A program made the translations under genes and the position numbers. Positions 6,462-46,832 of a DNA stretch of 64,000 bases are shown here, one piece after another. Numbering within the stretch: position 1 is the first letter of the stretch; each line of letters starts with the position of its first letter. The stretch spans positions 62,001 through 126,000 of IMG/VR virus record IMGVR_UViG_3300021197_001635. One strand, written 5' to 3'. The notes beneath the pieces were generated by a model that was not told where the DNA came from, made no database searches, and saw only the letters and a list, made by a program, of their open reading frames with translations. The DNA is from a virus.

Positions 6462-6479
6462 AACGAGAGGTAACGAAAA

Positions 6480-16518: not shown

Positions 16519-16552
16519 TCTGTACGGGGGTCTCACCCTCGACACTTCACAG

Positions 16553-16588
16553 GAAGACCCCTGGCTCAGGCTGGGGGTCTTCTTTTAT
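16553..16588 (+). terminator. Rho-independent terminator after porin
   Basis: GAAGACCCC paired with GGGGTCTTC around an 11-12-base loop, followed by TTTTAT. Strong intrinsic terminator 34 bases downstream of the porin stop. Confidence 0.85.
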
Positions 16589-16622
16589 ATACCCTAACGC
16601 CTGTTAGGTATTTCTAGATATG

Positions 16623-16713
16623 CCCCTTCCTGATATCCCCCTTTTGATATCAGGAAGGGGTATTGATACCACCCGTTGTATATCTCCTAGGGGGTATACC
16701 ACCCGTTGTATAT
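16623..16713 (+). promoter_or_regulatory. Composite operator: 15-bp inverted repeat plus two 18-bp direct repeats
   Basis: A perfect inverted repeat CCCCTTCCTGATATC/GATATCAGGAAGGGG (16623-16660, loop 8) is followed by two copies of ATACCACCCGTTGTATAT at 16666 and 16696, exactly 30 bases apart, with CTCCTAGGGGG between. The same arrangement precedes the CobS-like gene at 46650-46697. Probably a binding site for a phage or host regulator acting on both genes. Confidence 0.75.
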
Positions 16714-16736
16714 GAAGCCTTTTGGTAGGTAATATA

Positions 16737-16765
16737 TTGACAGAAGAATCCGCCTGTGGTACAAT
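16737..16765 (+). promoter_or_regulatory. Sigma70-like promoter for VWA/zincin gene (leaderless)
   Basis: TTGACA, 17 bases, TACAAT, with the conserved CTGTGG before the -10 box. The -10 box ends seven bases before the ATG at 16772, so transcription should begin at or next to the start codon, giving a leaderless mRNA; no Shine-Dalgarno site is present. Confidence 0.85.
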
Positions 16766-16771
16766 GGAAAT

Positions 16772-19039
16772 ATGGAAAAAACCGCTTTGAATACCAATCG
16801 TGACTCTAAGGATATCCTCGCTCGACTGCTGGCGACCGAGAATATCTGTGTCGAACACCAACCAGTACCAACAGCATACTTCGATACAGTCGAACGTCGA
16901 CTGGTCCTCCCAGTCTGGGAAAATATGGATAATGACCTTTACGACATGCTCGTTGGTCATGAAGTTGGTCATGCACTGTTCACCCCACATGGCAACGACT
17001 ACACCAAGGCCGCAATCGAGCGAATCGATGCTGCTGCGCCTGATAGTCGAGTCATGCCATACCTGAATGTGGTCGAAGATGTCCGCATCGAGAAGGCAAT
17101 CAAGGACAAGTTCCCAGGCCTTCGTCGCAATTTCATCAAGGCATACAAGGGCCTTGTTGACAGTGACTTCTTTGGAATCGCTGACAAGAATATCGATGAA
17201 ATGTCGCTCATCGATCGAGTTAATGTACACTACAAGGTGGGCAACCACGTGGAAGTGGCATTTTCTTCCGAGGAGCAGGTCATCGTCGATCAGATCGATC
17301 AGGTCACCACATGGGATGAGATGGTCGATGCCGCTGACGCATTGTACTCGCTCGCCAAAGAGCAGAAGCAGCAAGAGAAGCAGCAGGATCCTGATGATCA
17401 GGAAGAGTCTGCTTCTGCTGGTGACCACATGGACAACGAAGGTCAGTCCAGTTCTGCTGCCGATGAGGGCGACCAGTCCGACCAGACCGAGAACACCGAT
17501 GGTGAAGGTGGAGAGCAGGGTGGTGAAGAGCAGGGTGATGACTCTGGTGACTCGATGGACGATGATACCGACGATGGTGAGTCTGCTGATAGTCAGATGT
17601 CTGACAGCAGCAGCGATTCTCAGGATGGTGGAAATCAGACAGTCGACCAGATGGTTGATATGTCAGATCTTCCTGATGAATGTGAGACACAGAAGTCGAT
17701 GGAGAATGCCATCGAGAAGATGACCGATCAGATTGATGACCGTCGTCGAGTCTATATCACAATGCCCAAGCCTGACCTCGATGCGATCGTCATTCCAGTG
17801 GGCAAGGTGATGGATGACTTCCGCAAGCACCTTGCTCGTGACCGATACGATAGTTATCGCGATGACTATCTTTCCGCTTGCTACAACATCTTCACCTCCT
17901 TCCAGAAGGATGTGTCCAAGACCGTCAACAAGATGGCACAGCAGTTCGAGATGAAGAAAGCAGCAGACCAGTACAAGAGACGTGCAGTTACCGATTCTGG
18001 TGTGCTCGACACAATCAAGATGGTGAACTACCGATGGTCAGATGACGTGTTCCTGAAGAATACAGTCGTCCCTGGCGCTAAGAGTCACGGCATGATCATG
18101 TTCATCGACTGGAGTGGTTCGATGACTGATAAGATGTCCGATACCCTCAAGCAGTTGATGACTCTGATCATGTTCTGCAAGAAGGTCAACATCCCATACG
18201 ATGTCTATGCCTTCACGAGCAGCTACGTAGAAGATCCTGACCGCTGCTCCGCTACCAGCCGCAGCTACAAGGAAGGAGATGGTTTGATTGGTGACCTCCG
18301 CCTTCTCAATCTCATGTCTTCCTCGATGAAGAATCGCGATTGGACAGAGATGATGACTTACATGACCATGCTCACCAATGCATATGCTAACACTAACGAC
18401 AAGCACTTCACCACTTCATATCGGGTGGTCCCACAGGGTTACCATCTGGGTTGCACACCTCTTGACGATGCAATCGTCTGTGCTGCTGCAGTTGCCAAGG
18501 ATTTCAAGAATACGTACAATACTCAGATTGTCAACACCATCTTCTTGACTGACGGTTGTACCTCCAGTAGTCCTCTTTCTGGTTATTATAGCGGTGCGAA
18601 GCATTACAAGAACGGCCAGATGATCCATATTGATGGCATCGCTGTCCTCCGTGGCAAGCATGGCAAGATCTTCAACAATCACAAGACCACGACAGACAAT
18701 CTGCTTGAATGGTTCACAGCAGAGACTGGTATCCCAGTGCTGGGCATCTACGTTTGCCGCGACCGAGAGCTATACTACCTCTGCAATGAAGTCACCGATG
18801 AGATGTACACGAAGTTCAAGGCAGAAAAGAGCCTGGTGCTTGAGAATAGCGGTGGTTACAAGTCATTGTACGTGATGAATTCGACGAACACCAAGAAGGT
18901 CAAAGGCATCGATGATCTTTCTGGAGTAGTCAAGCCCGTGATGGTCAAGAATGCCATGGTCCGCGAGGCAAAGGCACGTAAGGCACAGCAGCGGATCATG
19001 GACACATTTGTCGCTAATATCTCCAAGGAGACAGTTTGA
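16772..19039 (+). CDS. CobT-like protein: N-terminal zincin motif plus VWA domain
   Basis: 755 residues. An N-terminal metallopeptidase-like part has VGHEVGHALFTPHG (HExxH at residues 63-67) and NVVEDVRIEKAI near 106. A very acidic, low-complexity linker (about 190-310) follows, then a VWA domain with a complete MIDAS: FIDWSGSMTDK near 446 and FLTDGCTSS near 592. This is the architecture of CobT-type partners of MoxR AAA+ ATPases (CobS-CobT, NorQ-NorD, CbbQ-CbbO). The matching CobS-like ATPase is at 46833 and shares promoter and operator. Likely an ATP-driven metal-dependent remodelling complex; true cobalt chelation is unproven. Codon use is more CGT/C-ending than the replication genes. Confidence 0.82.
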   Translation: MEKTALNTNRDSKDILARLLATENICVEHQPVPTAYFDTVERRLVLPVWENMDNDLYDMLVGHEVGHALFTPHGNDYTKAAIERIDAAAPDSRVMPYLNVVEDVRIEKAIKDKFPGLRRNFIKAYKGLVDSDFFGIADKNIDEMSLIDRVNVHYKVGNHVEVAFSSEEQVIVDQIDQVTTWDEMVDAADALYSLAKEQKQQEKQQDPDDQEESASAGDHMDNEGQSSSAADEGDQSDQTENTDGEGGEQGGEEQGDDSGDSMDDDTDDGESADSQMSDSSSDSQDGGNQTVDQMVDMSDLPDECETQKSMENAIEKMTDQIDDRRRVYITMPKPDLDAIVIPVGKVMDDFRKHLARDRYDSYRDDYLSACYNIFTSFQKDVSKTVNKMAQQFEMKKAADQYKRRAVTDSGVLDTIKMVNYRWSDDVFLKNTVVPGAKSHGMIMFIDWSGSMTDKMSDTLKQLMTLIMFCKKVNIPYDVYAFTSSYVEDPDRCSATSRSYKEGDGLIGDLRLLNLMSSSMKNRDWTEMMTYMTMLTNAYANTNDKHFTTSYRVVPQGYHLGCTPLDDAIVCAAAVAKDFKNTYNTQIVNTIFLTDGCTSSSPLSGYYSGAKHYKNGQMIHIDGIAVLRGKHGKIFNNHKTTTDNLLEWFTAETGIPVLGIYVCRDRELYYLCNEVTDEMYTKFKAEKSLVLENSGGYKSLYVMNSTNTKKVKGIDDLSGVVKPVMVKNAMVREAKARKAQQRIMDTFVANISKETV

Positions 19040-21933: not shown

Positions 21934-22192
21934 ATGAAGAATAAAATCGTACTTGAAATCACATTAGAGAGCGAGGCCTATGTGGATGAGTTCAAATCGG
22001 ACCCCAACCGCACCATGGATCTATGCCCTATTGATATGATGAAAATGATTGCAGGACAATGTAGACTTCCTTGGATGACCCACGGTATTAAAACGGTCAG
22101 ATGGAAAGAGCAGAGTCAGGATGAACAATATGAATTCGATGTGTATCGACTTCAGTATGCATATGATGATATAGGACAAAAGGACAAGACCA

Positions 22193-22215
<23 letters not shown>
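21934..22215 (+). CDS. Hypothetical protein upstream of IMP dehydrogenase
   Basis: 93 residues from ATG 21934 (GAGGAAG upstream). Starts with alternating strands (KNKIVLEITLESEAYVDEF) and contains CPIDMMKMIAGQCRLP. Overlaps the IMP dehydrogenase start by 23 bases, so the two are translated together. No family recognised. Confidence 0.62.
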
Positions 22216-24296
<2,081 letters not shown>

Positions 24297-24452
24297 TAGT
24301 ATTCTGAGATATATTCAGCAGCCATGTATGTGCATTCCCAGTATTGGGAGCCATAGCCGTCCCAGTGATTTAGACAGCCGCTAGTGTGCAACACGAGATT
24401 ATGCTAATAGCTCGGCATATCGTGTAACAAATCAAACAAATTTAAATACGTG

Positions 24453-24491
24453 CAAACGCCTCACGCCGCAAAGCCGCTGTGTGGGCGTTTG
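24453..24491 (+). terminator. Possible terminator hairpin
   Basis: CAAACGCC pairs with GGCGTTTG around a 23-base loop that itself has short GC pairing; a weak TTGTT run follows. It lies about 160 bases after the adenine deaminase gene. Poor T tract keeps confidence low. Confidence 0.35.
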
Positions 24492-24885
24492 TTGTATCAT
24501 GAGCTAGAACAAATCAAATCAAATCGAAGTGCTCATGGATTTTACCAGGTGAACTGTTTGTGCATGTGTGCAAATCTGTGCACATTAGCTTTTGTGTAAT
24601 TAAGAATGCAACGCCGCATGCACGGCTGTTAGTACTGTCAGAATCAATTGAATCAGTGCAACATGGCTGCGGGCGCATAACCTTTATAATAATTGCAATA
24701 ATAAAAACAAAAAAAAATAGAGACTGGTGTATCCATGTATATCTGCAGTATGGATGTATATCTGGTGTATTTGAATGTAATGCACGCCTACGAAATATAT
24801 GGGGGGATATTCGCGGAGCGAGATATATACCCCTAGGGAACCCCCCCAACTAAACCACCCGATTCTCTGTGAGGCTCTGATTCCT

Positions 24886-24893
24886 TATAAATA
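24886..24893 (+). promoter_or_regulatory. T4-type late promoter for head-internal protein block
   Basis: Exact TATAAATA, 92 bases before the first late gene at 24985, with no terminator-like T tract between. Confidence 0.65.
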
Positions 24894-24984
24894 CATGCAG
24901 AAGACAATATACACCCCCTCGGCGGGGGGAAAACATATACTACCCAAGGGACCCACAATTTTTCCTAAAAAGGATATTTGAAAA

Positions 24985-25626
24985 ATGACAATCCAAAACA
25001 GAATTTACATGCAGAAGTTAATGGATAGCTTGAAAAGAGCAGAAGAAGATTTACTAAAGGAAAATATCGCGGGTATGCCCCCTGCTGGCGGTGGATCTCC
25101 TTTAGGTTCGATGCCCCCAGGCGGAATGAGACGTATCCCTGGAATGGGTAGTACACCATTCCGTAGTAAAAGGAATCCTGGAAGTAATACCGATCAAGTA
25201 CAGGGTGATAGATTCCCTGATAAGATGGATGTGATCAGTCAAGATGGTGGAGTAGGATTCCCACCATCATGGTGGTCAGAAGAAAACGGACCTTTCCAAG
25301 ATCAGACGCACCAGATGGCTGCATGGTTCCAGTGGTTGCATAATCATGGTGGACTCGAAGCATTCTTGCAGGGATACCAAGGTCAAGTCACCCCCGCTAT
25401 GGAATATTTCTGGGAGAACCTTGGTTATCTCTTGAATAACATGGAAAACTATTACGGGTGGGATCCAGATGGATGGAGTCCTTACATAACTGGTTATTTC
25501 AATCAGTTAATGGGTGCTATTAATAACTACAATGCTCATATGGCTGGTGGTTACATAGATAATCCCGATCCTTCCATCGACGGTGGGTTGACCAATGGAC
25601 TTGGTGCACCTCCTGCTGGTGGTTGA
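24985..25626 (+). CDS. Head-internal/scaffold-type protein with N-terminal cleavage motif
   Basis: 213 residues. The N-terminus is a basic amphipathic helix (NRIYMQKLMDSLKRAEEDLLKE) with a gp21-type site LKE/N near residue 29. The rest is Gly/Pro/Met-rich, then Trp/Phe-rich (AWFQWLHNHGG) with an acidic end. It resembles scaffold or internal-core proteins that are trimmed during prohead maturation. Function not recognised. Confidence 0.55.
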   Translation: MTIQNRIYMQKLMDSLKRAEEDLLKENIAGMPPAGGGSPLGSMPPGGMRRIPGMGSTPFRSKRNPGSNTDQVQGDRFPDKMDVISQDGGVGFPPSWWSEENGPFQDQTHQMAAWFQWLHNHGGLEAFLQGYQGQVTPAMEYFWENLGYLLNNMENYYGWDPDGWSPYITGYFNQLMGAINNYNAHMAGGYIDNPDPSIDGGLTNGLGAPPAGG

Positions 25627-25677
25627 TAACCCCTTTCCTCTTCCGAAAGATTCGACCTTTAAAAAGGATGCTGAGAT

Positions 25678-26193
25678 ATGGGAATGTTCTTCGAAAACTT
25701 CGACCCAGTTGCGGGTGTTGCCGTGCCCGCAACTGGGGGATTGACTGTCAATGAAGCAAAGGGAGTGCCTATGAATCATAGGCAGACCTATCCTGGGAGA
25801 GAGAACCACCCCGCAGTTCCGCCTCCTTCCCAACAAGTGGATCGCTTCCGCTATGATGTCGAGTCAAGGCCAGATACGCCTGGCTCTCTAGATTGGTTAC
25901 AACAACTTCGGAAGCCCGACGCTCAACAGTGGTATGAGTTTCTGGTTCCAATAGAGTTCAGGGATCCGAGGTTCACGCTCGAAAGATTGCCACCCATGCC
26001 ACCAATCCCTCCCCAACAGCAGTTTAGTAACCCTGGACCTCTCCTACCCGATGACCCTTCAGATATTGGTGAGCCTGGACCACCACGTTTACCATATCAG
26101 CAACTTACACCGCCAGGAAATCAGGTAAATCCTACACCCATGACACCACAAGAAGTAAAAAACATGCTTAAAGACATGATGAGGAGAAAATAG
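25678..26193 (+). CDS. Proline-rich late protein, possible head-internal
   Basis: 171 residues, very Pro/Gln-rich (PPMPPIPPQQQ, PGPLLPDDPS) with a helical basic C-terminus TPQEVKNMLKDMMRRK. A VNE/A motif near residue 26 could be a prohead-protease site. The first codons carry a perfect 12-bp inverted repeat (25704-25737). AAGGA lies upstream of ATG 25678. No family recognised. Confidence 0.5.
   Translation: MGMFFENFDPVAGVAVPATGGLTVNEAKGVPMNHRQTYPGRENHPAVPPPSQQVDRFRYDVESRPDTPGSLDWLQQLRKPDAQQWYEFLVPIEFRDPRFTLERLPPMPPIPPQQQFSNPGPLLPDDPSDIGEPGPPRLPYQQLTPPGNQVNPTPMTPQEVKNMLKDMMRRK
25704..25737 (+). repeat. Perfect 12-bp inverted repeat inside coding start
   Basis: CCCAGTTGCGGG and CCCGCAACTGGG with ten bases between. 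It would form a very stable RNA stem at codons 9-20 of the Pro-rich gene. No U tract follows, so it is more likely an mRNA structure or binding site than a terminator. Confidence 0.75.
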
Positions 26194-26194
26194 A

Positions 26195-26244
26195 ATGAGC
26201 ATCTATAGGAAAAATGATAATATCAAAAGCCTAACAGAGGCATA
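26195..26244 (+). repeat. 50-bp perfect direct repeat, copy 1
   Basis: The coding start of head-internal protein A; repeated without mismatch at 26635-26684. It encodes the targeting peptide up to the LTE/A site. Confidence 0.9.
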
Positions 26245-26638
26245 CAAGGGAATGTTCTCCCCTGAGAAATCGAACGATCCCATCGCAGATGATTATGCAG
26301 CATCGCAAAATGAAACATATATGGCGCCCAACGCAAATTCACCAATGATGAATGATAAACCAGCATCACTCTCTAAGGGTGATATGGGTTCTAAGATGCC
26401 TGATCAATCCGTCTCCCAACCCCCAGAAGGCGGTTTGGACATGTTAGGTACATACACTGAGTCTTTCTTGGACTGGTTCTTATGGTTTATGGAAAATCAG
26501 GACTCTCTTGATTTTAACAACATGGGTTCTTACATGCAGCAAATATACAATATAATTGGTAATTCTGTTCCAAACGGTCAGTTTAACCAAGATTCATTGA
26601 ACCACATACTAGCAAACTGGGGGCAACCTTACGTATGA
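26195..26638 (+). CDS. CTS-bearing head-internal protein A
   Basis: 147 residues. The N-terminus MSIYRKNDNIKSLTEAYKGM contains a probable prohead protease site LTE/A after residue 15. The body is Ser/Pro/Met-rich, then a Trp/Phe patch (FLDWFLWFMENQ). The first 50 bases are identical to those of the next gene. Likely packaged with the core; function unknown. Confidence 0.62.
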   Translation: MSIYRKNDNIKSLTEAYKGMFSPEKSNDPIADDYAASQNETYMAPNANSPMMNDKPASLSKGDMGSKMPDQSVSQPPEGGLDMLGTYTESFLDWFLWFMENQDSLDFNNMGSYMQQIYNIIGNSVPNGQFNQDSLNHILANWGQPYV

Positions 26639-26684
26639 GCATCTATAGGAAAAATGATAATATCAAAAGCCTAACAGAGGCATA
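26635..26684 (+). repeat. 50-bp perfect direct repeat, copy 2
   Basis: Start of head-internal protein B, identical to 26195-26244. Sequence diverges immediately after the encoded cleavage site. Confidence 0.9.
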
Positions 26685-26976
26685 TAATAAAATGTATTCT
26701 TCTGATGAAGATGTTCAGGGCATTGAAGAAATTCATGATATGCCAGACCGTCTAGGTCCAGATGGAGTGCCGAATTCACCTAGCACCCCACAAACACCCA
26801 AGAGGATTAAAGAGCCTGGAGTTCCTAGACCACCCATTAGTCCTATTACCAATCCAACTCATCCGAACGCACCCCCACCACCAGTGATTAAACCACAACT
26901 CCCGTTGGATCGACTAATCCCAGACCTGCTGGACCTTTGGGACAAGATGACCAGTCCATACCGTTTTAGGCGATAG
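26635..26976 (+). CDS. CTS-bearing head-internal protein B
   Basis: 113 residues. Same leader as protein A (identical through residue 16), with LTE/A cleavage motif, fused to a different Pro-rich body (PKRIKEPGVPRPPISP) and a basic end. ATGA overlap with protein A. The leader has been copied onto a new cargo. Function unknown. Confidence 0.6.
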   Translation: MSIYRKNDNIKSLTEAYNKMYSSDEDVQGIEEIHDMPDRLGPDGVPNSPSTPQTPKRIKEPGVPRPPISPITNPTHPNAPPPPVIKPQLPLDRLIPDLLDLWDKMTSPYRFRR

Positions 26977-26997
26977 GGTATTCAAACCTATTGAGAT

Positions 26998-27005
26998 TAT
27001 AAATA
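26998..27005 (+). promoter_or_regulatory. T4-type late promoter box
   Basis: Exact TATAAATA 22 bases after protein B stop; it would drive the structured RNA region and perhaps the genes beyond. Confidence 0.6.
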
Positions 27006-27076
27006 ATGTGTGAAAGGAAACAATAATAATCAATGATTAGAGATACCTCTTCACAATCAAATACCATAACAAGACA

Positions 27077-27233
27077 GGACGGTGTGCCATGCGAAAGCGG
27101 GTACGCCGTCCTTTCTTATAAGGATTTCTCCTACGGTCCGAGCAAGATAGGCAGTGCGCCAGTCGTTACGCTATCCATGCAAGGTGAGGGTGTATCAGAC
27201 CCTCACTAAGGAACTTCGCTACCTTTGGACCGT
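27077..27233 (+). ncRNA. Candidate structured noncoding RNA (hairpin plus cloverleaf-like junction)
   Basis: Hairpin 27077-27112 has stem GGACGG..GTGCC / GGTAC.CCGTCC capped by GC-GAAA-GC. Then ACGGTCC (27133-27139) pairs perfectly with GGACCGT (27227-27233), enclosing GATAG/CTATC (27146-27175), an eight-bp GTGAGGGT/ACCCTCAC stem with seven-base loop (27184-27206) and AAGG/CCTT (27208-27225). A strong terminator follows. The shape recalls a tRNA-like or riboregulator RNA, but there is no tRNA T-loop or CCA. Not a family I recognise. Confidence 0.55.
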
Positions 27234-27246
27234 CATTCATAGTAGG

Positions 27247-27282
27247 CAACCCCTTGACCTTTGTCAGGGGGTTGTCTTTTTT
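27247..27282 (+). terminator. Strong rho-independent terminator
   Basis: Twelve-bp stem from CAACCCCTTGAC with GTCAGGGGGTTG around loop CTTT, followed by TCTTTTTT. It ends the structured RNA transcript. Confidence 0.9.
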
Positions 27283-27319
27283 ATATATAAAGGAGAACAT
27301 ACCCTAGGAGACTCCCTAT

Positions 27320-28690
27320 ATGAAGAATTTCAAACAGTTTGTCTTGACAGAGGCTAGAGGATTCTTCATGGGTCACCACATAGGTGATGATGTGGTGTTC
27401 AAATCAGGATCTTATGCTAGTGCTGGGTCTTTCACCATTGTTTCTCATGACATGGTATCGGACATTCACTCCAAGGTGGATGGTTATGTTCAAAAAGGTT
27501 ATGAGGTTGCACAACAATGGACTGGTCCAGATAAAGAGATCACTGATACTAGTAAGGTAGATAGTTATAATGATGGTAGAATCATAGTATTAGATAGCCA
27601 GAAGAAAAAAGTCATAGTGGTCATATTTGGCAAGGGTAAAAATTCTGGTGCATCACCTAGAAGATTCAACCTTAGATACTCAACAAGCACAGAATCGCTA
27701 GACCTTAAACCTCAATCATTGGGTCTGAAAGAGAAGCCCTATGGTATGGATTCTTTCGCTAATACTGTAATAAATGCGGTCCTCGACAGGAAAGATTTAG
27801 ACCCAGCAGTCAAGGGTTATCTCGAACTTCTAGTTGAGTATTATTGGAATAATTATAGCAATGAAGTGGCAAACGACATCAAGAATGAGTATGGTGATGT
27901 CCTCAGTAGCATGCCCATGGGTCAGATTAAGAAGAACTTCGGTGAAATAATAGGTCCCTTAGCAATTCTTGCAAGCAAATCCGTACTGTTCAAATCAATG
28001 AAATTCAATAAAAGAGACAAAATACTCTTGCCTTTAAGGGGTAACGAGGAACTGGTAGACTTCTATCTTGTGAAAGACGGGAGACAAATACCTTTCTCTG
28101 CCAAGTCTGGAAGATCTACTACCAACTTGGTAAAGCCAGGCAATATAGTGTCACTGATTGATGCTAACCCCTCCTTCAAGAGGAAATACGGTAGGTCTCT
28201 GGAAGTCAAGGTTATGAAAGACCTTGCCAGCAACGTAGCAACTGATGGACCCATGGTAGCAGCATATAACCTTAACAAATCTATCAAGGAATTCAAGAAG
28301 ATCTCCAAGGAGATGCTAGACCATTGGACTTCTACCTCCAGTAGGAAGGGCAGAGATTGGAAGTATATCCCCGAGTTATATGATGACTATGCTTCGGCTA
28401 TCGGATTGAACACCAGCGGAAGAAAGAAACCAACGTTTGGTGAAATACTCTATTACACCGAAACAACCCTCGCTAGAGCAAGCAAGGGTGGGATATTAGA
28501 CTACTCAGAGATGTTCAATGAGGTGGTAGGTGGTGCAGTCAACTACATCAACCTAGTCAAGATGGATAAAAACGGTCTACCAGTGTGGGAGACCTCAGAA
28601 GGTGGAAGATCAACTGCCCATTTGAGAACTAAAAATGGAACTACTAGGATCGCAACAGACAAAGTTGGTTTACAAGTACATACAGGGTAA
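27320..28690 (+). CDS. CTS-bearing head protein with possible PD-(D/E)XK nuclease motif
   Basis: 456 residues. N-terminus MKNFKQFVLTEARG is a T4-like capsid-targeting peptide with cleavage LTE/A after residue 11. Near residue 250, ELVDFYLVKDGRQIPFSAKS has the spacing of a PD-(D/E)XK core (Asp, then SAK) seen in restriction-like nucleases, but supporting acidic residues are not certain. If packaged, it could be injected to attack host DNA. TATATATAA and AAGGAG precede the gene. Family not otherwise recognised. Confidence 0.6.
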   Translation: MKNFKQFVLTEARGFFMGHHIGDDVVFKSGSYASAGSFTIVSHDMVSDIHSKVDGYVQKGYEVAQQWTGPDKEITDTSKVDSYNDGRIIVLDSQKKKVIVVIFGKGKNSGASPRRFNLRYSTSTESLDLKPQSLGLKEKPYGMDSFANTVINAVLDRKDLDPAVKGYLELLVEYYWNNYSNEVANDIKNEYGDVLSSMPMGQIKKNFGEIIGPLAILASKSVLFKSMKFNKRDKILLPLRGNEELVDFYLVKDGRQIPFSAKSGRSTTNLVKPGNIVSLIDANPSFKRKYGRSLEVKVMKDLASNVATDGPMVAAYNLNKSIKEFKKISKEMLDHWTSTSSRKGRDWKYIPELYDDYASAIGLNTSGRKKPTFGEILYYTETTLARASKGGILDYSEMFNEVVGGAVNYINLVKMDKNGLPVWETSEGGRSTAHLRTKNGTTRIATDKVGLQVHTG

Positions 28691-28693
28691 TAA

Positions 28694-29239
28694 ATGAATA
28701 GATTTATATGGTTCAATACTGACGAAGAGACTATAACACTTGAAACAAGATCTTATAAATCTCATATGGCTGGATGGCATGCATTAGTGGCAGTTCAAAA
28801 TCCTGATTCTATGGGTTTTGACCAGTCTGTGATTATGGATTTGCTGGGAGAGGAAAGATATAATACACTAGCAGGAATACCGATCGAAAGTGCATTCTCT
28901 GGTGATAACAAGAAGAAATTGCAACAAATGGAAGATTATGAGAGACCGATAGAATCCTTGATTTACAAAGAAAGACCAATGATGGTGAAGGCTAGGAGAT
29001 CTTTAGATTCTCACAGCGGTAAAAACTGCTGGTTTATCACATCCACAGATAAGGATAAGGCTAGAATATTTCTAAAGCGGATGGGTGGAGAGATGAAAGA
29101 CAGAGATATTATTATGATATCTACCCTGTCTAAGGAAGTGGATAAAGAGTTCACATGTAGAGAATCGGCGATAAGACATCTAGAAGGAAGAAAGAGATCT
29201 ATTATAGGTGAAAGAATGGAACAGATAAGGAACTTATAG
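28694..29239 (+). CDS. Hypothetical late protein
   Basis: 181 residues, charged, mixed alpha/beta, with KNCWFITSTDKDKARIFLKR near 111 and a basic C-terminus. No targeting peptide, signal or membrane segment. It lies three bases after the nuclease-like gene and four before the next, so it is in the same late transcript. No family recognised. Confidence 0.62.
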   Translation: MNRFIWFNTDEETITLETRSYKSHMAGWHALVAVQNPDSMGFDQSVIMDLLGEERYNTLAGIPIESAFSGDNKKKLQQMEDYERPIESLIYKERPMMVKARRSLDSHSGKNCWFITSTDKDKARIFLKRMGGEMKDRDIIMISTLSKEVDKEFTCRESAIRHLEGRKRSIIGERMEQIRNL

Positions 29240-29243
29240 CACT

Positions 29244-30608
29244 ATGAATGAGAATCTCAATAAAGGCACAAATAAAGACCACGGTTCCTCATCGGGCAAA
29301 TTCGTCAAAGGTTGGGTTCATCCCTCTGGTAAGGTATATGTGTGGAACAAGATGGAACCGTATCATGTTCAGTATATTGCTAATAATCCTAGCAAGTTTA
29401 GACTCAAAGAGCAAGATATACTAGACCATCTAATAGAAAGATATGAAGACTATGGTGTTAACCAACCAGCTACATCAGCAAGAAGCGAGATGATCAATCT
29501 TAAGAATGGTCGTACTGATATTGATAGAAAAGTAGAATTGATGGTGATAAAAAAGGGTTGGTGTAGATTTGTGCTTGATGATGACTGGGGGGGTCTCAGA
29601 GGTATCAAAAATAAAGACATACACAAATGTGCCAAGATATTGTTCGACAAGATGGAAAGAAGGTTCACCAAAAGTTTTGGACTAGAGGTGAATATAATAG
29701 ATGCTAGGCTTGGGGACTATAATTACCGAAAAGGTAAATATCTGGCCCACGACATGCTAAGGGCATGGGTAAACGGTAAACAACCAGACCCCCATAGTGT
29801 TCAATTAAGGAAGCATACCGAAATAGGAAGGACTATGAAAATGTTCAGGGGTCATGACTGGGACGAGCCAGTAAAGATTTATAGTAGTCACATACCTTTA
29901 TCGTTCAAAGAATGGTTGAAAGAATCCGTGGAAATGAAAGACGGAAAGTATGTTACCGTGAAGCAGTTTAACTCTGAGGATGCGGCTATGGCATCTATAG
30001 AGAATGCAGAAGGTCTTATTGACCACATGAAGATTATGGATTCTGTATATACTATGGTGTTCGATAGTGAAGACCACAAAGAGAAGTTCGTAAAAGATCA
30101 TGAATTTAATCTTATGGGGGAATCAACCACACATGATTCTAACTCAATTAGTGAGAAGAGCAGTAGAGCAGAGATAGAAGGTGCTATGGAGTGGTGGCAT
30201 GGCGAAATCACTGCATCCAGTAAGAGAGATAGAGCCGCTATGGGGTATGGTAGACCTGAGCATATTAGGGAACTAATCAAAAGACCTGTGCCTAATCTTA
30301 AATATCATATTAAGATGTATAATGCTTACCTAGACGAATACGGTCCTTTTGATGAAGTACCATCCAGATTAGAAGAGGCAAGAAGATTTACACCATCTGG
30401 TACATTCCAATTTCCTAGTGCAAACCAAGCAAAAGATTTCATGAGTGATATTTCAAGAGAAGGAAGAGGGAATATCCAAACTCAACACAGATTTGAACAA
30501 GGTTATGGCAGGAAGAATATAATCGATGTAAAATGGTCAGGCACTATGGATAGAGTAGTATATGACGTTCTTAGAAAATATAATGGCCGTGCATGGACTC
30601 AAGGGTAG
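29244..30608 (+). CDS. Multi-domain head protein with internal targeting/cleavage motifs
   Basis: 454 residues. The N-terminal 210 residues include KGWVHPSGKVYVWNK and a central mixed domain. Then SFKEWLKESVEMKDG near 220 looks like an internal copy of the capsid-targeting/cleavage peptide (LKE/S), and SRLEEARRFTPSG near 373 is another LEE/A site. The stretches after each site look like separate small domains. A prohead-protease-processed polyprotein is the simplest reading; activity unknown. Confidence 0.58.
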   Translation: MNENLNKGTNKDHGSSSGKFVKGWVHPSGKVYVWNKMEPYHVQYIANNPSKFRLKEQDILDHLIERYEDYGVNQPATSARSEMINLKNGRTDIDRKVELMVIKKGWCRFVLDDDWGGLRGIKNKDIHKCAKILFDKMERRFTKSFGLEVNIIDARLGDYNYRKGKYLAHDMLRAWVNGKQPDPHSVQLRKHTEIGRTMKMFRGHDWDEPVKIYSSHIPLSFKEWLKESVEMKDGKYVTVKQFNSEDAAMASIENAEGLIDHMKIMDSVYTMVFDSEDHKEKFVKDHEFNLMGESTTHDSNSISEKSSRAEIEGAMEWWHGEITASSKRDRAAMGYGRPEHIRELIKRPVPNLKYHIKMYNAYLDEYGPFDEVPSRLEEARRFTPSGTFQFPSANQAKDFMSDISREGRGNIQTQHRFEQGYGRKNIIDVKWSGTMDRVVYDVLRKYNGRAWTQG

Positions 30609-30615
30609 GACCTTA

Positions 30616-31275
30616 ATGAAATCATTTAAGCAATTCATACTAGAGACATATGCTGATTCTGGCATAGGCAAGTGGATGAGACAGTCTGCTGGGGGATCAC
30701 CAGGCTGGGATAGGTATGGTACTAGCGGACAAAAACTGGGTAAATGTGGGGATGCAAAAGAGGGAGATGCATACTCTGCATGCTTATCTGCTAGCAAGGC
30801 TAAGAAATTGGGTAAAGATGGAATAGCATCATATGTTAGAAGAAAAAGGGATGCACAGAAGAAGTCTGGCGACTCTTCCAAAGGTGGTGAGGAAAAGAAG
30901 GGTCAGAAACCAGTATATGTCAAGACAGAGAGTAAAGAGCCTGGTAAGGACTATCATGAAAAGATGGCAGATAAGTTGAGGAAAGCAGGATTTGACCTGA
31001 GGAAACCAATCAGCAGGAAAAAAGCATGGGATGTCATCGGAAGTATGGCAGTTAGCAGGCTTGCTGACAAAGGATATATAGATATAGAGGGTGGTGAGGG
31101 TAGACAGAAAAGAGAATCTGTTATAGAGTCTGACAACAAGCCTACCAACCCATCTCTATGGAAGAAAGCATTATCTAAGGCTAGATCTAAATTCGATGTA
31201 TTCCCATCAGCATATGCTAGTGCTTGGGCATCAAAGTGGTACAAAGAACAAGGTGGAGGTTGGAAAAAGAAATGA
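30616..31275 (+). CDS. CTS-bearing protein with DUF5872-like domains
   Basis: 219 residues from ATG 30616. Leader MKSFKQFILETYADS has an ILE/T cleavage-type site. Residues about 19-76 (GKWMRQSAGGSPGWDRYG..GKCGD..ACLSASKAKKL) and the C-terminus (NPSLWKKALSKARSKF..PSAYASAWASKWYKEQGG) match small basic domains recurrent in cyanophages and large algal viruses (DUF5872-like). Strong positive charge suggests DNA compaction or delivery with DNA. ATGA overlap to the next gene. Confidence 0.72.
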   Translation: MKSFKQFILETYADSGIGKWMRQSAGGSPGWDRYGTSGQKLGKCGDAKEGDAYSACLSASKAKKLGKDGIASYVRRKRDAQKKSGDSSKGGEEKKGQKPVYVKTESKEPGKDYHEKMADKLRKAGFDLRKPISRKKAWDVIGSMAVSRLADKGYIDIEGGEGRQKRESVIESDNKPTNPSLWKKALSKARSKFDVFPSAYASAWASKWYKEQGGGWKKK

Positions 31276-31931
31276 AATCATTTAAGCAATTCATAAAAGA
31301 GCAGCAAATGGGTGGTGGACCTCCAGGCGGTTTCCCAGACGATTTGCCTGATTGGCCAGAAGAAGATATGTGGGATACTATAAACGATGATGGGACTTGG
31401 ACTTCTGGAGGATATACTTGGTATATTCGAGATGGTCAACTATATGTATACATAGATGGAGAATGGTACTTGCGTGGTGCTTCACTAGACACTGGTGAAG
31501 ACGAAGATTCGACCGCAAATGGACGAGATGGGATAGACTGGCGTGATAGTTATGGTCTCCTGTTCCAGATTCTTATAGATTTGGGATATAGTATTAAAGA
31601 AATACGTGAACTGGGCATTCCAGTCCCTGAACATGAGCCATGGGAGGACCCCAAGGACGACCCTGATTACGACCCAAATGTGGATGGGATACCACCTTGG
31701 TGGGACCAACCAAATAACCCCCCACCACCTCTCCCCGATGGAACTGATCCTGTTTATCTAGAGGATGGTCCATATGGACCAGGCTGGTACTATGATGATG
31801 AATTTACTCCAGTTCTTCCAGAAGATTATGAATCAGGCATGATGTCTAATTATGGACCATCTGGGGTAGCGGCCATGCCTTCATCTATACCATCGCTTAC
31901 ACCTAATATCAAGGGTGGAGGACCCAAATGA
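31272..31931 (+). CDS. CTS-bearing Pro/Asp/Trp-rich head protein
   Basis: 219 residues from ATG 31272. Leader MKSFKQFIKEQQMGG, then an acidic, Trp/Tyr/Pro-rich low-complexity body (DDLPDWPEEDMWDTI, WWDQPNNPPPPLPDG). Net strongly negative. Similar bodies recur at 34148 and 34888. Possibly a core protein or DNA mimic inside the head; not recognised. Confidence 0.6.
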   Translation: MKSFKQFIKEQQMGGGPPGGFPDDLPDWPEEDMWDTINDDGTWTSGGYTWYIRDGQLYVYIDGEWYLRGASLDTGEDEDSTANGRDGIDWRDSYGLLFQILIDLGYSIKEIRELGIPVPEHEPWEDPKDDPDYDPNVDGIPPWWDQPNNPPPPLPDGTDPVYLEDGPYGPGWYYDDEFTPVLPEDYESGMMSNYGPSGVAAMPSSIPSLTPNIKGGGPK

Positions 31932-32884
31932 AGTCATTTAAGCAATTCATCATAACTAAGGCAGATATAGACAGTATCACATATGGTACTCCTACCGTCC
32001 AACAGCAAGAGAGAATGGACAAGGAACTGGAGTATTTTGATGACAGTATATATGACCTAGTTACGATGGGGTGTGCACCGAGCAATACCAGCGACACTAC
32101 CAAGAAAGAATTGTATTACCTACACAGGGTAGAAAAAAACGAAGAAATGTTTGAAAAGTATGACATGCATTTTTCTCCCTCTATATTCGGTTATGCTAGA
32201 GATAATGGTCTAGACTTTGATGAAGAAGAACTTAGACGGATAAAAAGAGAAGCATCTAACATATTGCTACACGTAAAATTCCACTTTAACAGGCCTAGAC
32301 CTTATCAGATAGCGGACTCCCTTGGTATGGAGCTAGACCACATGAATACCGAATCTGGTCACACACCCTCATACCCCAGCGGGCATGCAGGTTTGGCAAG
32401 GCTATTGGCACTGCTGATTGCTAAAGACAACCCAGATTATAAAGACGAACTAATCGCCATCGCGGATGAGATAGCCTTATCTAGAGAGATAGGCGCTGTT
32501 CATTTTCCCTCAGACAATGATTTTGGTAAAGAAGTTGCCAATATAATGTATAGCGAACTCACTGGTGAGGAATTGCAGGAATGTGATTGCGGTTGTGATG
32601 AGCGTTTAGATGAGGCAGAATACCAAGGCAAGAAGGTAACATTAAATAAGCCTTTTAGAACGCCTGGAGAATCTAAGAAATTTGCAGTTTATGCCAAGAA
32701 TGATAAAGATAAAGTGGTAATTGTTCGATTTGGTGACCCGAATATGGAAATCAAGAGGGATGACCCGAAGAGATTAAAAGCATATCGCTCAAGAATGGGT
32801 TGCGACACCGATCCAGGACCCAAATGGAAAGCAAACTACTGGTCTTGTTATCAGTGGAGAGCTGGTGCAAAAGTAGACGACTAA
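31928..32884 (+). CDS. CTS-bearing PAP2-type phosphatase fused to phage head domain
   Basis: 318 residues. Leader MKSFKQFIITKADID. All three PAP2 acid-phosphatase motifs are present: KFHFNRPRP near 117, YPSGHAG near 149 and SREIGAVHFPSD near 188, so it should be an active phosphatase on a lipid phosphate or small phosphoester. A protease site DERLDEAEY near 225 separates a C-terminal domain with VTLNKPFRTPGESKKFAVY and FGDPNMEIKRDDPKR, a module common in T4-like marine phages (DUF6321-like). A head-packaged phosphatase is unusual. Unlike most PAP2 enzymes it has no membrane helices. Confidence 0.8.
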   Translation: MKSFKQFIITKADIDSITYGTPTVQQQERMDKELEYFDDSIYDLVTMGCAPSNTSDTTKKELYYLHRVEKNEEMFEKYDMHFSPSIFGYARDNGLDFDEEELRRIKREASNILLHVKFHFNRPRPYQIADSLGMELDHMNTESGHTPSYPSGHAGLARLLALLIAKDNPDYKDELIAIADEIALSREIGAVHFPSDNDFGKEVANIMYSELTGEELQECDCGCDERLDEAEYQGKKVTLNKPFRTPGESKKFAVYAKNDKDKVVIVRFGDPNMEIKRDDPKRLKAYRSRMGCDTDPGPKWKANYWSCYQWRAGAKVDD

Positions 32885-32925
32885 TTCGGAGGTAGGTGAT
32901 ATGTTCATCATGAAAAAAGAATCAT

Positions 32926-33144
32926 ATGACAATAGACTGGATAGACGTAGCACTAACACTCCTAACTACGGGGTTTTTTTCCCTAATAGGGTTTGTATGG
33001 AAATACTCACATAAGGTAACAGCATTGGAAAAAGATGTTGCTGATAATAAGAGAAGAATAAGGAAAATGGAATCTGACCACGACAAGGTAATGGACAAAA
33101 TGTATTCTATTGTGAAATCCCGTGGGGACTTTCAAATCAAATAG
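32926..33144 (+). CDS. Small N-anchored coiled-coil membrane protein
   Basis: 72 residues. One hydrophobic segment WIDVALTLLTTGFFSLIGFVW, then a coiled coil (TALEKDVADNKRRIRKMESD). The topology resembles phage holin/spanin accessory proteins. The only good ribosome site (GGAGGT at 32888) belongs to an out-of-frame ATG at 32901 that opens a 37-codon frame, so translation may be coupled or shifted at the A6 run near 32911. Confidence 0.6.
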   Translation: MTIDWIDVALTLLTTGFFSLIGFVWKYSHKVTALEKDVADNKRRIRKMESDHDKVMDKMYSIVKSRGDFQIK

Positions 33145-33154
33145 GGGTACTCAA

Positions 33155-33499
33155 ATGGAAAAATCAACCAATAAAGAAGAATGTTCAGTGTGTCGTGAAA
33201 AAGATGTAGAGAGACTCAAGTTCGAACTACATAAATGTAAAGATGCAGGTAAGGTTAAAGATAAGAAGATTAAACAGTTAGACAAAAAGGTGTTCGTACT
33301 CACTTTCATAGCAGTCGCTATTGGTGCTATTTTTGGTAAGGAAGTGTTAGATACAGTCATTGAATGGTTGGAATCAATCGGCAGTTTTAATTCTGGTGTT
33401 AATCACATAACTCATACTGGGGTATATCCAGCGCCTGGAACATTGGCAGTATTTGCACTACCAGTAATCATGGGAAGAAGAAGCAGGAAGAGAAAATGA
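33155..33499 (+). CDS. Membrane protein with PAPG-type exosortase (PEP-CTERM-like) tail
   Basis: 114 residues from ATG 33155. N-terminal CSVCREKD and basic coiled region, one transmembrane segment (VFVLTFIAVAIGAIFG, about 50-65), then a C-terminal tripartite sorting signal: YPAPG, hydrophobic TLAVFALPVIM, and basic GRRSRKRK. This is the layout of PEP-CTERM exosortase substrates, and PAPG is the form common in planctomycetes. It could be a surface or lysis protein processed by the host exosortase. Unusual for a phage; ATGA overlap with the next gene. Confidence 0.65.
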   Translation: MEKSTNKEECSVCREKDVERLKFELHKCKDAGKVKDKKIKQLDKKVFVLTFIAVAIGAIFGKEVLDTVIEWLESIGSFNSGVNHITHTGVYPAPGTLAVFALPVIMGRRSRKRK

Positions 33500-33948
33500 A
33501 ATCATTTAAACAATATATTGACGAAGCAGTGACCGATGATCGCAAGGAAGTCGCTAAAGGGCTTAAGAAGTGGGCAAAGCAATATGTGAGCGGATCTATA
33601 TCGGTTAAATCGGGTAGTGGTAAAACTCCCTTTGTCCAGTTGACGGCAAGAGGAGGGGAGATCAGCAATGACCTCCGCAAGATGGTAATCGACAAAATAT
33701 TCACAGATGCTAAAGTACGCGACATGAATGATATTAGTTACGGTAACGTCACTAAGAATTATATCGCTATCACCTCTGATCAATGGAAGAAGGTGATGGG
33801 ACTGGATGAGACTATAGTTAAGAGCGGTGACAAGTGGAAGGTCATGAACAAGGACAAGTCAAAGACCTTAGGTACTCACGACTCTAAAAAGATGGCCCTC
33901 AAGCAGTTAGCAGCCGTAGAAATAAGCAAAGCGAGCAGAGGGAAATGA
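33496..33948 (+). CDS. CTS-bearing small head protein
   Basis: 150 residues. Leader MKSFKQYIDEAVTDDR with IDE/A cleavage site. Central basic strand region (KSGSGKTPFVQLTARGG) and C-terminal module KSGDKWKVMNKDKSKTLGTH followed by KKMALKQLAAVE, a short unit seen as a tail in many phage proteins. Function unknown; probably packaged. Confidence 0.65.
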   Translation: MKSFKQYIDEAVTDDRKEVAKGLKKWAKQYVSGSISVKSGSGKTPFVQLTARGGEISNDLRKMVIDKIFTDAKVRDMNDISYGNVTKNYIAITSDQWKKVMGLDETIVKSGDKWKVMNKDKSKTLGTHDSKKMALKQLAAVEISKASRGK

Positions 33949-34151
33949 AATCTTTCAAAGAATATATAATAGAGAGGCTTAGGATCAACTACAAAAAAGG
34001 TAGAAAATTGGTGGCTACCAAGGGTAGTAAAGAAGGCGAGACTGGAACTGTGGTGTCTATGGGTCCCAATGCGGCATTTGTACGAATCAAACTGGATAAG
34101 AACGATCAGGTAATACAGCAGAATCCTAAATTCTGGAAAGTTATGAAATGA
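33945..34151 (+). CDS. CTS-bearing KOW/SH3-like small protein
   Basis: 68 residues. Leader MKSFKEYIIERLRINY (IIE/R site). The remainder, GRKLVATKGSKEGETGTVVSMG with AFVRIKLDKND, looks like a small beta barrel of KOW/SH3 type. Basic; may bind nucleic acid in the head. Overlaps by four bases on both sides. Confidence 0.6.
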   Translation: MKSFKEYIIERLRINYKKGRKLVATKGSKEGETGTVVSMGPNAAFVRIKLDKNDQVIQQNPKFWKVMK

Positions 34152-34882
34152 AATCATTTAAACAATATCTAGAAGAGAACTTGGGTTCAGGTTCTAAAAT
34201 TAGTCTTTCCCCAAGTTCTAGTATGGGGAATTTCAGAAGCACTCCATCACCTCCACCAGAAGGTGAAGGAGAAGGTGAAGAAGGACCAGTAAAACTCGTA
34301 CCAACCACAGACCCAACTCAATGGGTGGATCCCGATGGGAACCACTATTGGGATTCAGATGGAGATGGTGTTCCAGACATGATTTGGAACGGAGATGCAT
34401 GGGTGGTAATACCACCTGGATTAGAATTTGAAGATGGAGAAGAACCAGACGAAGATGAAGATGAAGATGAAGAACCAGATGAAGGTGAGGACGAGGATGA
34501 GGACGAGGATGAAGATGAAGAACCAGATGAAGAAGATGATGATTTAGTAGAAATACCATGGGAGCTTTGGCAACAACTTCAATTATTGCAGCCAGCATTC
34601 AATCCTGGCTTATACTTCAAACCTCCAGGCGGTGAGGGTGGTGGAGATGGTGGTGGTGGAGGTGGCAATATAAATTGGTATAAAGAAACTCCATGGAAAC
34701 CAGGCTACCCACATCCAAGTGATGGTAGTCCCAGTCCTTCAACTCCAGGTAACTGGATTCCCCTACCCTATGGTAACTGGTGGAATACAGATGAACGTCG
34801 ACCACGAGGTAGACAAGAGTACGACGAATTAGAATGGTACTATGACCCATCGAACATCGGTGGTGGTGGGAGCATGCCATAA
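34148..34882 (+). CDS. CTS-bearing acidic Asp/Glu/Pro/Gly-rich head protein
   Basis: 244 residues. Leader MKSFKQYLEENLGSGSK with LEE/N site. The body contains WVDPDGNHYWDSDGDGVPD, which has a calcium-loop-like DxDxDG, and a long EDEDEDEEPDEGEDEDED run, then Gly/Trp-rich repeats. Extremely acidic, so it may mimic DNA or bind cations in the head. Leader region nearly duplicates that at 34888. Confidence 0.6.
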   Translation: MKSFKQYLEENLGSGSKISLSPSSSMGNFRSTPSPPPEGEGEGEEGPVKLVPTTDPTQWVDPDGNHYWDSDGDGVPDMIWNGDAWVVIPPGLEFEDGEEPDEDEDEDEEPDEGEDEDEDEDEDEEPDEEDDDLVEIPWELWQQLQLLQPAFNPGLYFKPPGGEGGGDGGGGGGNINWYKETPWKPGYPHPSDGSPSPSTPGNWIPLPYGNWWNTDERRPRGRQEYDELEWYYDPSNIGGGGSMP

Positions 34883-34887
34883 ATCCA

Positions 34888-35601
34888 ATGAAATCATTTA
34901 AACAATATCTAAAAGAGAACTTGGGTTCAGGTTCTAAAATTAGTCTTTCCCCAAGTCCTAATATGGGGATGGGAGATTTTAGAAGTAACCCAACACCTCC
35001 ACCACCACCAGAAGGCGAAAGTTCTCTGGGGTGGAGTCCTTGCGGTGGTTGTGGACCCGATGGACAGCCTGGTGAGTTTATACCTGATGGTCAGGGTGGG
35101 ACATATTTTTATGACCCCGCAACTGGTGATACCTACTATTACAACCCAGCAACTGGTGAGTGGTCGAATTTCTCCGATGGGGACGACAATGACTCCATCA
35201 CACCACCAGACCCAGAACCAGGCCCATCACCAGACCCATTTAAACCAGTTGTTGTACCCAGAGAGAAATATGACAAATGGGATAACTGGTGGGATGAAAA
35301 TATGCCACCTGAATATCCGCCGTTTGATTTCTGGTTCCATCCAGACGATGAAGAATATGAAGACCCAGCAGACATTCCTGCACCATCAGGATGGCCACCA
35401 AATGTACCGTGGCCACCACCAGACTTTCCTCCTGGAATGGACCCTGCAAACTACAACGATATGCCTCCTGCGGGCAATGGTTGGTATCAGTTCTGGGACC
35501 CAAATAATGAACCGTTCTATTACAACCCAGGCCCACCACCTTCATATCAGTATGGTGAACCTTACAATGTGGACCCATCTGTACCACCTTGGGAAGCATA
35601 A
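34888..35601 (+). CDS. CTS-bearing Pro/Gly/Asp/aromatic-rich head protein
   Basis: 237 residues. Leader MKSFKQYLKENLGSGSK (LKE/N site), then Pro/Gly/Tyr-rich repeats (YYYNPATGEW, PGPSPDPF, WPPPDFPPGMDP). The first 80 or so bases match those of the previous gene with about three differences; bodies then diverge. Function unknown. Confidence 0.6.
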   Translation: MKSFKQYLKENLGSGSKISLSPSPNMGMGDFRSNPTPPPPPEGESSLGWSPCGGCGPDGQPGEFIPDGQGGTYFYDPATGDTYYYNPATGEWSNFSDGDDNDSITPPDPEPGPSPDPFKPVVVPREKYDKWDNWWDENMPPEYPPFDFWFHPDDEEYEDPADIPAPSGWPPNVPWPPPDFPPGMDPANYNDMPPAGNGWYQFWDPNNEPFYYNPGPPPSYQYGEPYNVDPSVPPWEA

Positions 35602-36810
35602 ATGAAATCATATAAGCAATTCATCAACGAAGGTAAGAACACTCACCTAGAGCATCTAGAAGATGAACTCTGGAACGAGGGTTCCGCAGGCGTAGAGAAC
35701 GCACTACGTTTCGTGGGTGAGGTTGCTTCTATGTTATCTGGTAATGCTGATTCTTCTATTAATATCACCACTAAATGGGATGGTGCACCTGCTATTTTCT
35801 GTGGTATCAACCCTGAAAACGGCAAATTCTTTGTTGGTACTAAGAGTGTGTTCAATACTGGTCAGCCTAAGATCAACTACACCAATGCAGATATCAACAA
35901 GAATCATGGTGGGGGATTGGCAGAAAAACTGAAGATAGCACTCAAACATCTACCTTCATTAGGTATTAAAGGTGTCCTTCAGGGAGACCTGATGTTCACA
36001 TCCAGTGATCTAAGCAGCATGAAGGTAGACGGGAAATCCCATGTCACCTTCACACCCAACACTATCACCTATGCTATCCCAGAAGGGTCGGATGCTGCCA
36101 AAGAGGTTAAGTCCGCTAAAATGGGTATAGTATTCCACACCAAATATTCTGGAAGGAAGATGTCAGACATGAAGGCATCATTCAACCCCAAGGTGAAATC
36201 TCTCAGGAAAAACAAGGCTGTTTGGTTCAGGGATGCCGATTTCAAAGACGAAAGTGGTAGTTCCACTCTAACATCCAGTGAAAAGGATGTTATAATGTCT
36301 AAAGTGAAGGATGCTAAATCCCTACTGTCCAGTACATCTAAGACAATAGAGTCCTTCAGATCCAACAGGCAGATAATACCTTTCGTCAAGATATACATGA
36401 ATAGTATGGTAAAAGAAGGCAGCACCGTAGGCAATACTGACGGTCTCATTAGTCACATATCTGCTAAGTTCGATAATGACATAAATAAATTGAAGACAGA
36501 CGCTGCTAAAGAAAGAAAGAATGCTATAAGAGAAGAGATAGTCAAATACCTCAGATCAGAAGAGGCTAGGCTAGATAAAATATTTAAATTGCATTCTGTT
36601 CTTACCGATATCAAAATAATGCTGGTAAGAAAATTGGAGAGGATTAAGGGTATAGGAACCTTTATTAGAGATGATAAAGGTTTCAGGGCTACGTCTCCAG
36701 AAGGATTTGTGGCAGTAGATAGGATTTCCAATAAGGCACTTAAACTGGTCGATAGACTAGAATTCAGCAGGTCTAATTTTACGGTTGCTAAAAACTGGGT
36801 AAAGGGATAA
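35602..36810 (+). CDS. CTS-bearing nucleotidyltransferase/ligase-like protein (KxDG motif)
   Basis: 402 residues. Leader MKSYKQFINEGKNTHLEHLE with INE/G site. ITTKWDGAPAIFCG (K58, D60, G61) is a ligase/capping-type motif I; GVLQGDLMF near 124 and SPEGFVAVD near 372 fit motifs III and IV, with a terminal Lys in FTVAKNW near 396. It matches a conserved cyanophage family of ligase-like proteins (DUF6267-like). It could adenylate and join nucleic acids, possibly repairing DNA just after injection. Catalysis is inferred from motifs only. Confidence 0.75.
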   Translation: MKSYKQFINEGKNTHLEHLEDELWNEGSAGVENALRFVGEVASMLSGNADSSINITTKWDGAPAIFCGINPENGKFFVGTKSVFNTGQPKINYTNADINKNHGGGLAEKLKIALKHLPSLGIKGVLQGDLMFTSSDLSSMKVDGKSHVTFTPNTITYAIPEGSDAAKEVKSAKMGIVFHTKYSGRKMSDMKASFNPKVKSLRKNKAVWFRDADFKDESGSSTLTSSEKDVIMSKVKDAKSLLSSTSKTIESFRSNRQIIPFVKIYMNSMVKEGSTVGNTDGLISHISAKFDNDINKLKTDAAKERKNAIREEIVKYLRSEEARLDKIFKLHSVLTDIKIMLVRKLERIKGIGTFIRDDKGFRATSPEGFVAVDRISNKALKLVDRLEFSRSNFTVAKNWVKG

Positions 36811-36815
36811 AAAAA

Positions 36816-37883: not shown

Positions 37884-37906
37884 TCAATTAAAAAGGAGAA
37901 TATAAA

Positions 37907-46602: not shown

Positions 46603-46624
46603 AGAACCAGAGGTTCCAGCCATA

Positions 46625-46697: not shown

Positions 46698-46753
46698 ACC
46701 CTAACGTGACCCTAACGTCATGTTAAGGTTTTGTTTAGATACTAGGCAATATA

Positions 46754-46782: not shown

Positions 46783-46832
46783 GGGTTATAAGGTTGGGGA
46801 TCGTCCCACCCATTTCAGGAGATATGCCCAAT

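Follow-up and report, generated by a model that had tools for sequence, protein, structure and literature searches.

Leader DNA shared by adjacent genes with largely unrelated bodies in a head-cargo-like cluster of a T4-like marine phage

Introduction

Head proteins that are injected belong to the first phage products in the cell. The internal proteins (IPs) of phage T4, which are anti-restriction proteins, have only their leader in common (PMC12373910). In IPI, IPII and IPIII this is a short N-terminal stretch with hydrophobic or aromatic residues at positions 4, 7 and 8 and a glutamate at position 10. In this capsid-targeting sequence (CTS), positions 4 and 7 are important for targeting, while processing depends on positions 8 and 10, and it has been suggested that the CTS serves evolution as a means of packaging a variety of proteins (PMC9026906). 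The idea of leader sharing was already published for the T4 internal proteins (Mullaney & Black 1996; Repoila et al. 1994, as cited in PMC3012670, PMC9026906 and PMC12373910), and the basic phenomenon, one leader on unrelated bodies, is known from T4. The head ejection proteins of the giant phages phiKZ and SPN3US are alike in that a prohead protease removes N-terminal propeptides from many cargo proteins, and a single propeptide can hold several cleavage sites (PMC10052503, PMC9026906); their propeptides, however, are mostly long (111-254 residues in SPN3US), and swapping of cargo modules at their cut sites is not described in the literature that we sampled.

Here we analyse repeated leader DNA in a window of 64,000 nucleotides, positions 62001-126000 of a 136,012-base T4-like marine phage contig; all leaders and cargo-like genes of the window given below lie on the + strand. 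As far as the sampled literature shows, three aspects go beyond T4, namely the extent of the phenomenon in this marine phage, the existence of a second class of leader whose DNA is identical in front of unrelated bodies, and internal protease sites that appear to serve as joints, the last of which may have a prior description, since the literature was only sampled.

Results

Head genes, cargo cluster and leader classes

Outside the window, the contig encodes a T4-type prohead protease (phrog_207), a scaffold (phrog_237), a major head protein (phrog_138) and a portal (phrog_213), together with UvsX, UvsY and SbcC/SbcD-like (46/47-like) recombination families. Within the window, a head-cargo-like cluster of about 20 kb (24985-45154, + strand) stands out, in which 16 of 25 ORFs carry [LI]xE in residues 3-30 compared with 24 of 115 elsewhere (Fisher p = 4.7e-5), while the control motifs [LI]xK and [LI]xD showed no enrichment in the N-termini of the same ORFs. 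Cleavage by gp21 follows L/I-x-E, the same motif as the cuts predicted for these leaders. Several features of T4-type CTS cargo are present in this genome: short N-terminal leaders ending in L/I-x-E (including MSIYRKNDNIKSLTE in genes 26195 and 26635), the same leader on unrelated bodies, and a gp21-type protease encoded along with T4-type head genes. Leaders of the form MKSFKQ[FY][IL]xE open genes 30616, 31272, 33496, 34148 and 34888, with MKSFKEYIIE on 33945 and MKSYKQFINE on 35602, and the MKSF leaders have F4, F/Y7, I/L8 and E10, matching the key T4 CTS positions. By analogy, the repeated leaders look like capsid-targeting sequences that the prohead protease would remove at [L/I]xE/ (the slash marks the predicted cut).

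Unlike the T4 IPs, this locus has many more led genes in one cluster and at least one further leader class (MSIYRKNDNIKSLTEA). The leader of 26195 and 26635, MSIYRKNDNIKSLTEAY, misfits the T4 CTS pattern MKxFxxFIxE and resembles a second N-terminal motif, [IL]xEAYxxM, which stands at the N-terminus of 10 of 2443 representative ORFs (0.33 expected) from five unrelated families, two of these ORFs being from this window; as the motif was derived after seeing the data, this enrichment is only a lead. A degenerate pattern for the second class matched 0 and 1 contigs. Because similarity in this class continues past the predicted cut to EAYxxM, its leaders may not be cut.

Three adjacent gene pairs with repeated leaders

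The sequence-only reading had described 50 identical bases opening two consecutive genes, and self-comparison of the window confirmed 50/50 identity between 26195-26244 and 26635-26684, with 89% over 71 nt. The first copy starts at its ATG and opens a cargo-like gene of 147 aa (26195-26638) with an orphan body; the ATG of the second, which overlaps that gene's stop codon, begins a cargo-like gene of 113 aa (26635-26976) with a Pro-rich body unrelated to that of 26195, the two bodies scoring at the shuffle mean (Smith-Waterman z -0.7). Gene 26195 has no Pfam or PHROG family and its body had no relatives in IMG/VR, isolated phages or six related records; the body of 26635 likewise had none in the six related records searched. 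The 60 nt upstream of the two copies match at 17 positions, which is chance level, and all 15 comparable leader codons are synonymously identical, a result expected with a probability of about 10^-6.6 under the codon usage of this genome. The cut is predicted after E15 (MSIYRKNDNIKSLTE/AY, nt 45), with identity running as far as nt 50 and a weak resemblance reaching about nt 71.

A near-identical leader of about 80 bases had also been noted at the starts of genes 34148 and 34888, and it was recovered here as 83 nt with 96% identity (34147-34229 versus 34887-34969). These copies belong to the T4-CTS-like class and read MKSFKQYLEE followed by a NLGSGSKISLSPS linker in the first copy. Their homology begins one base before the ATG by chance, and the 60 nt upstream match at 15 positions, again chance level; with such flanks on both pairs, homology of the copies begins at the ATG. 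All 22 comparable codons are synonymously identical (about 10^-11.3 under the genome's codon usage), and such codon identity means that the pairs are DNA copies and not merely conserved peptides. Here the predicted cut follows E10 (nt 30), and the copied stretch extends to nt 82-83. The copies thus do not end exactly at the predicted cut, where the sequence-only reading had placed the end of the first pair's identity; they overrun the E codon by 5 nt in 26195/26635 and by about 52 nt in 34148/34888.

Gene 34148 (34148-34882, 244 aa) has a cargo-like body resembling residues 117-204 of a 1224-aa polyprotein in the related contig L010, and gene 34888 (34888-35601, 237 aa) is a cargo-like gene with WW-like repeats (a weak Pfam WW match just under the cut-off), whose body had no relatives in the six related records searched. 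Comparison of the two bodies gave z 2.8 from residue 28 and 0.4 from residue 45, so that a trace of similarity reaches about residue 45 with nothing beyond it. The claim that the bodies are unrelated past the leader thus stood in full for 26195/26635 and, for 34148/34888, beyond about residue 45 but not before it.

The 34148-34888 pair sits exactly between a small CTS-led protein (33945-34151, 87% aa identity to the L010 gene at 9798) and a CTS-led phrog_455 protein (35602-36810), whose counterparts are directly adjacent genes in L010; either this phage therefore acquired a two-gene unit of 1.45 kb at a leader-leader junction, or L010 lost one. Relatives of phrog_455 at about 40% identity occur in pelagiphage HTVC008M and many cyanophages, some of them adjoining a cytidyltransferase gene, and no megablast-level DNA match to isolated phages was obtained in 22000-38000. 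In a third adjacent pair, the leaders MKSFKQFILE (30616-30645) and MKSFKQFIKE (31272-31301) are identical at 24 of 24 nt and precede unrelated bodies, the first in a GxGKW module gene (30616-31275) and the second in a gene (31272-31931) whose body lies partly inside the L010 polyprotein.

The same pattern in T4 and related contigs

The adjacent T4 genes ipII and ipIII resemble the present pairs in having near-identical leader DNA (32/33 nt) and unrelated bodies, the next 33 nt matching at only 9 positions. They differ in what precedes the leader: T4 shares 34 of 60 upstream nt, whereas the genes here overlap at ATGA without shared upstream sequence. In a scan of 241 related loci for leader-sharing gene pairs, L246 gave 54/54 identical nt ending at the E codon before unrelated bodies, and its relative L245, from a different metagenome, likewise has a leader-sharing pair with unrelated bodies. 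In L195 and L185, 30 shared nt end at the E codon and the bodies are again unrelated; L199, with 47 shared nt on non-adjacent genes and a body z of 1.3, is probably a further such case. The bodies of the L012 and L013 pairs are still similar (z 5.8 and 4.3), and these pairs are ordinary duplicates that have diverged. The presence of both kinds of pair indicates that both processes occur. By eye, the second leader copy of L245 adjoins a gene whose start resembles a prohead protease. As a separate observation, three consecutive genes at L022:16750-21206 have one N-terminus in common (MAQSQLRGNKQIQSGSITN...) and also resemble each other in their bodies; they are ordinary tandem duplicates, possibly of fibre genes.

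Leader copying is confined to particular pairs

With only the first member of each copied pair retained, the MK-type leaders of the genome share synonymous codons at 0.48 compared with 0.46 expected. Being at the codon-usage expectation, they show no general homogenisation, and DNA copying is limited to particular adjacent pairs; the same figures led us to reject a genome-wide homogenisation of all leaders as DNA cassettes. In an ortholog comparison with the closest relative, 33945, 30616 and 35602 seem to have inherited their leaders vertically. Across phages, TCA encodes Ser3 in 65% of distinct MKSF leaders, compared with 29% of the other serines at residue 3 (p = 4.7e-6), a bias that suggests a nucleotide constraint or common descent of older date. 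The repeat is a coding stretch of 50-83 nt whose flanks have no shared sequence, unlike a mobile element, and the neighbouring ORFs that were examined included no mobility gene. The view of the leader as a mobile module consequently survives in part. Identical DNA does stand on unrelated, cargo-looking bodies, recurs in T4 and other contigs, and is accompanied in relatives by cargo modules behind different leaders or inside longer proteins; however, the leader is no independent element, synonymous excess is absent from most MK leaders, and two pairs in relatives (L012, L013) are diverged duplicates.

Module shuffling and possible cleavage-site joints in relatives

Comparison of the cargo proteins of this contig with those of L008-L013 revealed extensive module shuffling, with the modules D1, D2, ARRF and GxGKW found in swapped contexts; the check for independent swapping that the sequence-only reading had suggested was thus made on modules neighbouring the orphan bodies of 26195, 26635 and 34888. 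Module D2 (AEYxGKKVxLNxPFRTP) is here the C-terminus of a PAP2-like protein (31928-32884, PF01569 above the cut-off), following ...RLDE/AEYQGKK, and elsewhere lies almost directly behind a leader (L013), behind D1 (L011) or at the end of the 1224-aa protein (L010). Gene 33496-33948 consists of a CTS leader, a further domain and then D1 as its C-terminus after GLDE/TIVK, while in L011 and L013 D1 lies directly behind the leader. The single 1224-aa L010 protein contains counterparts of parts of 34148, 31272 and 29244 together with the D2 of 31928, and this mosaic recurs in three contigs from three metagenomes (L008-L010). Gene 29244-30608 is itself a mosaic, its left domain (as in L010_3237) being joined to an ARRF module (as in L010_8325) at ...EVPSRLEE/ARRF.... 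The left DNA matches the L010 polyprotein up to this cut, and the match of the right DNA to another L010 gene (98.8% aa) sets in 24 nt ahead of it, placing the junction relative to L010 on 24 nt of shared cleavage-site DNA.

More broadly, [LIVMF]xE stands exactly before D2 in 18 of 37 distinct contexts and one residue away in most others. In the T4-like set, [LIVMF]xE[AGSC] occurred within 8 residues of module boundaries 2.05-fold over expectation (95% 1.48-2.67) in a family-weighted test, which superseded an unweighted version and in which the enrichment persisted; D and K versions of the motif were not enriched at module boundaries, but the reversed motif was also raised in this set (1.86, 95% 1.06-2.76), so acidic linkers account for part of this modest boundary enrichment. 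Such joining of modules at internal [L/I]xE sites distinguishes the locus from the T4 IPs, and the sequence comparisons suggest that head-protease cut sites may also be places where cargo pieces are joined and swapped. Separately, two long cargo-like L010 proteins (3237-6911 and 15722-18406) appear by eye alike over the first ~130 residues and then differ.

Discussion

We consider it probable that the repeats are N-terminal capsid-targeting leaders of T4-like phage head cargo which ectopic recombination has spread to new bodies. The sequence comparisons show the copied leader DNA, the unrelated bodies, the shuffled modules and one junction at cleavage-site DNA; that the proteins are targeted, cleaved and injected, and by which pathway recombination acted, we infer from T4. 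The leader would bind the core during prohead assembly, so that the cargo protein becomes enclosed, and the prohead protease would then cut after [L/I]xE, so that the body stays behind in the head, ready to be injected. As such a leader would function on almost any body, its DNA could be set before new bodies by ectopic recombination, and because leader and body would be functionally independent, the outcome would be a usable cargo gene. Recombination, probably by the phage's own UvsX/UvsY/46/47-type system, would place leader DNA before a new open frame or replace the body of a duplicated gene, and the shared leader or cut-site DNA may itself supply the homology. Under this scheme, 26195/26635, 34148/34888 and 30616/31272 would be recent products, either of leader copying or of body replacement in a duplicated gene, and in relatives internal protease sites seem to act likewise as joints between cargo modules.

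The main competing account is that the genes arose by plain tandem duplication and that their disordered, low-complexity bodies then diverged very fast while selection kept the leader. It draws on the fact that the copied genes are mostly adjacent and their bodies Pro/Gly/Trp-rich, on the body similarity still detectable in the L012 and L013 pairs, and on the trace kept by 34148/34888 up to about residue 45. Yet selection on the protein does not hold synonymous codons identical, and the bodies of 26195/26635, L246, L195, L185 and ipII/ipIII score at shuffle level next to identical or near-identical leader DNA. Moreover, the body of 34148 matches a different L010 gene, and that of 34888 is without a relative in the six records searched. 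That the bodies might be diverged copies of each other, the outcome which the sequence-only reading had set against its own proposal, does not hold for 26195/26635, nor for 34148/34888 past about residue 45. We therefore regard duplication with divergence as an unlikely source of the pattern.

Strong nucleotide selection near the start codon, acting on translation initiation or an RNA element without any copying, is much less probable still. The TCA bias at Ser3 does reflect some nucleotide-level signal or deep common descent across leaders, but the other MK leaders of the genome vary synonymously as codon usage predicts, and identity over 50-83 nt far exceeds an initiation region and comes with no upstream sequence in common. 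A chimeric assembly that repeated the leader seems, by a small further step, the least probable of the three: the locus is known from a single metagenomic contig, and near-identical records may have been absent from the searches, but both ORFs of each pair are intact with differing bodies, the complete T4 genome shows this pattern too, as do L245 and L246 from two metagenomes, and the L010 mosaic is repeated across L008-L010.

Beyond the spread of leaders by recombination, prohead-protease sites, both in leaders and inside long cargo genes, could be DNA-level recombination joints in T4-like marine phages, giving a combinatorial library of injected modules whose boundaries are fixed by the protease motif; we advance this tentatively and regard it as possible but somewhat doubtful. 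Should a shuffled cargo library indeed be joined at protease sites, led and site-bounded modules could be listed automatically in marine phages as candidates for injected proteins of host takeover or anti-defence, and it would become testable how T4-like phages recruit new cargo.

Other features of the window

Several further features were observed. A PurZ-like (succino-amino-deoxyadenylate synthase) protein is encoded at 53547-54620, its best NCBIfam match being PurZ at 215 bits, under the cut-off of 300, and genes at 22193-23290 and 23238-24296 encode an IMP dehydrogenase/GMP reductase-like protein (below cut-offs) and an adenosine deaminase (above cut-off); from this gene content, a phage with 2-aminoadenine DNA is possible. 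Strongly conserved, extended promoter-like repeats, TTGACAGAAG...TGGTAtAATGG, occur at 16732-16771, 46749-46788, 48212-48242, 50483-50513, 51497-51536, 52274-52313 and 61995-62034. An upstream region with ATACCACCC repeats, an inverted repeat and a promoter-like element is duplicated about 30 kb apart (16612-16771 and 46614-46788), preceding a 755-aa gene of unknown function (16772) and an ATPase gene whose product has some similarity to CobS (46824), respectively. Finally, 36-nt tandem repeats (QMPPMGGMGKKP) lie at 37714-37821 inside gene 36816-37883.
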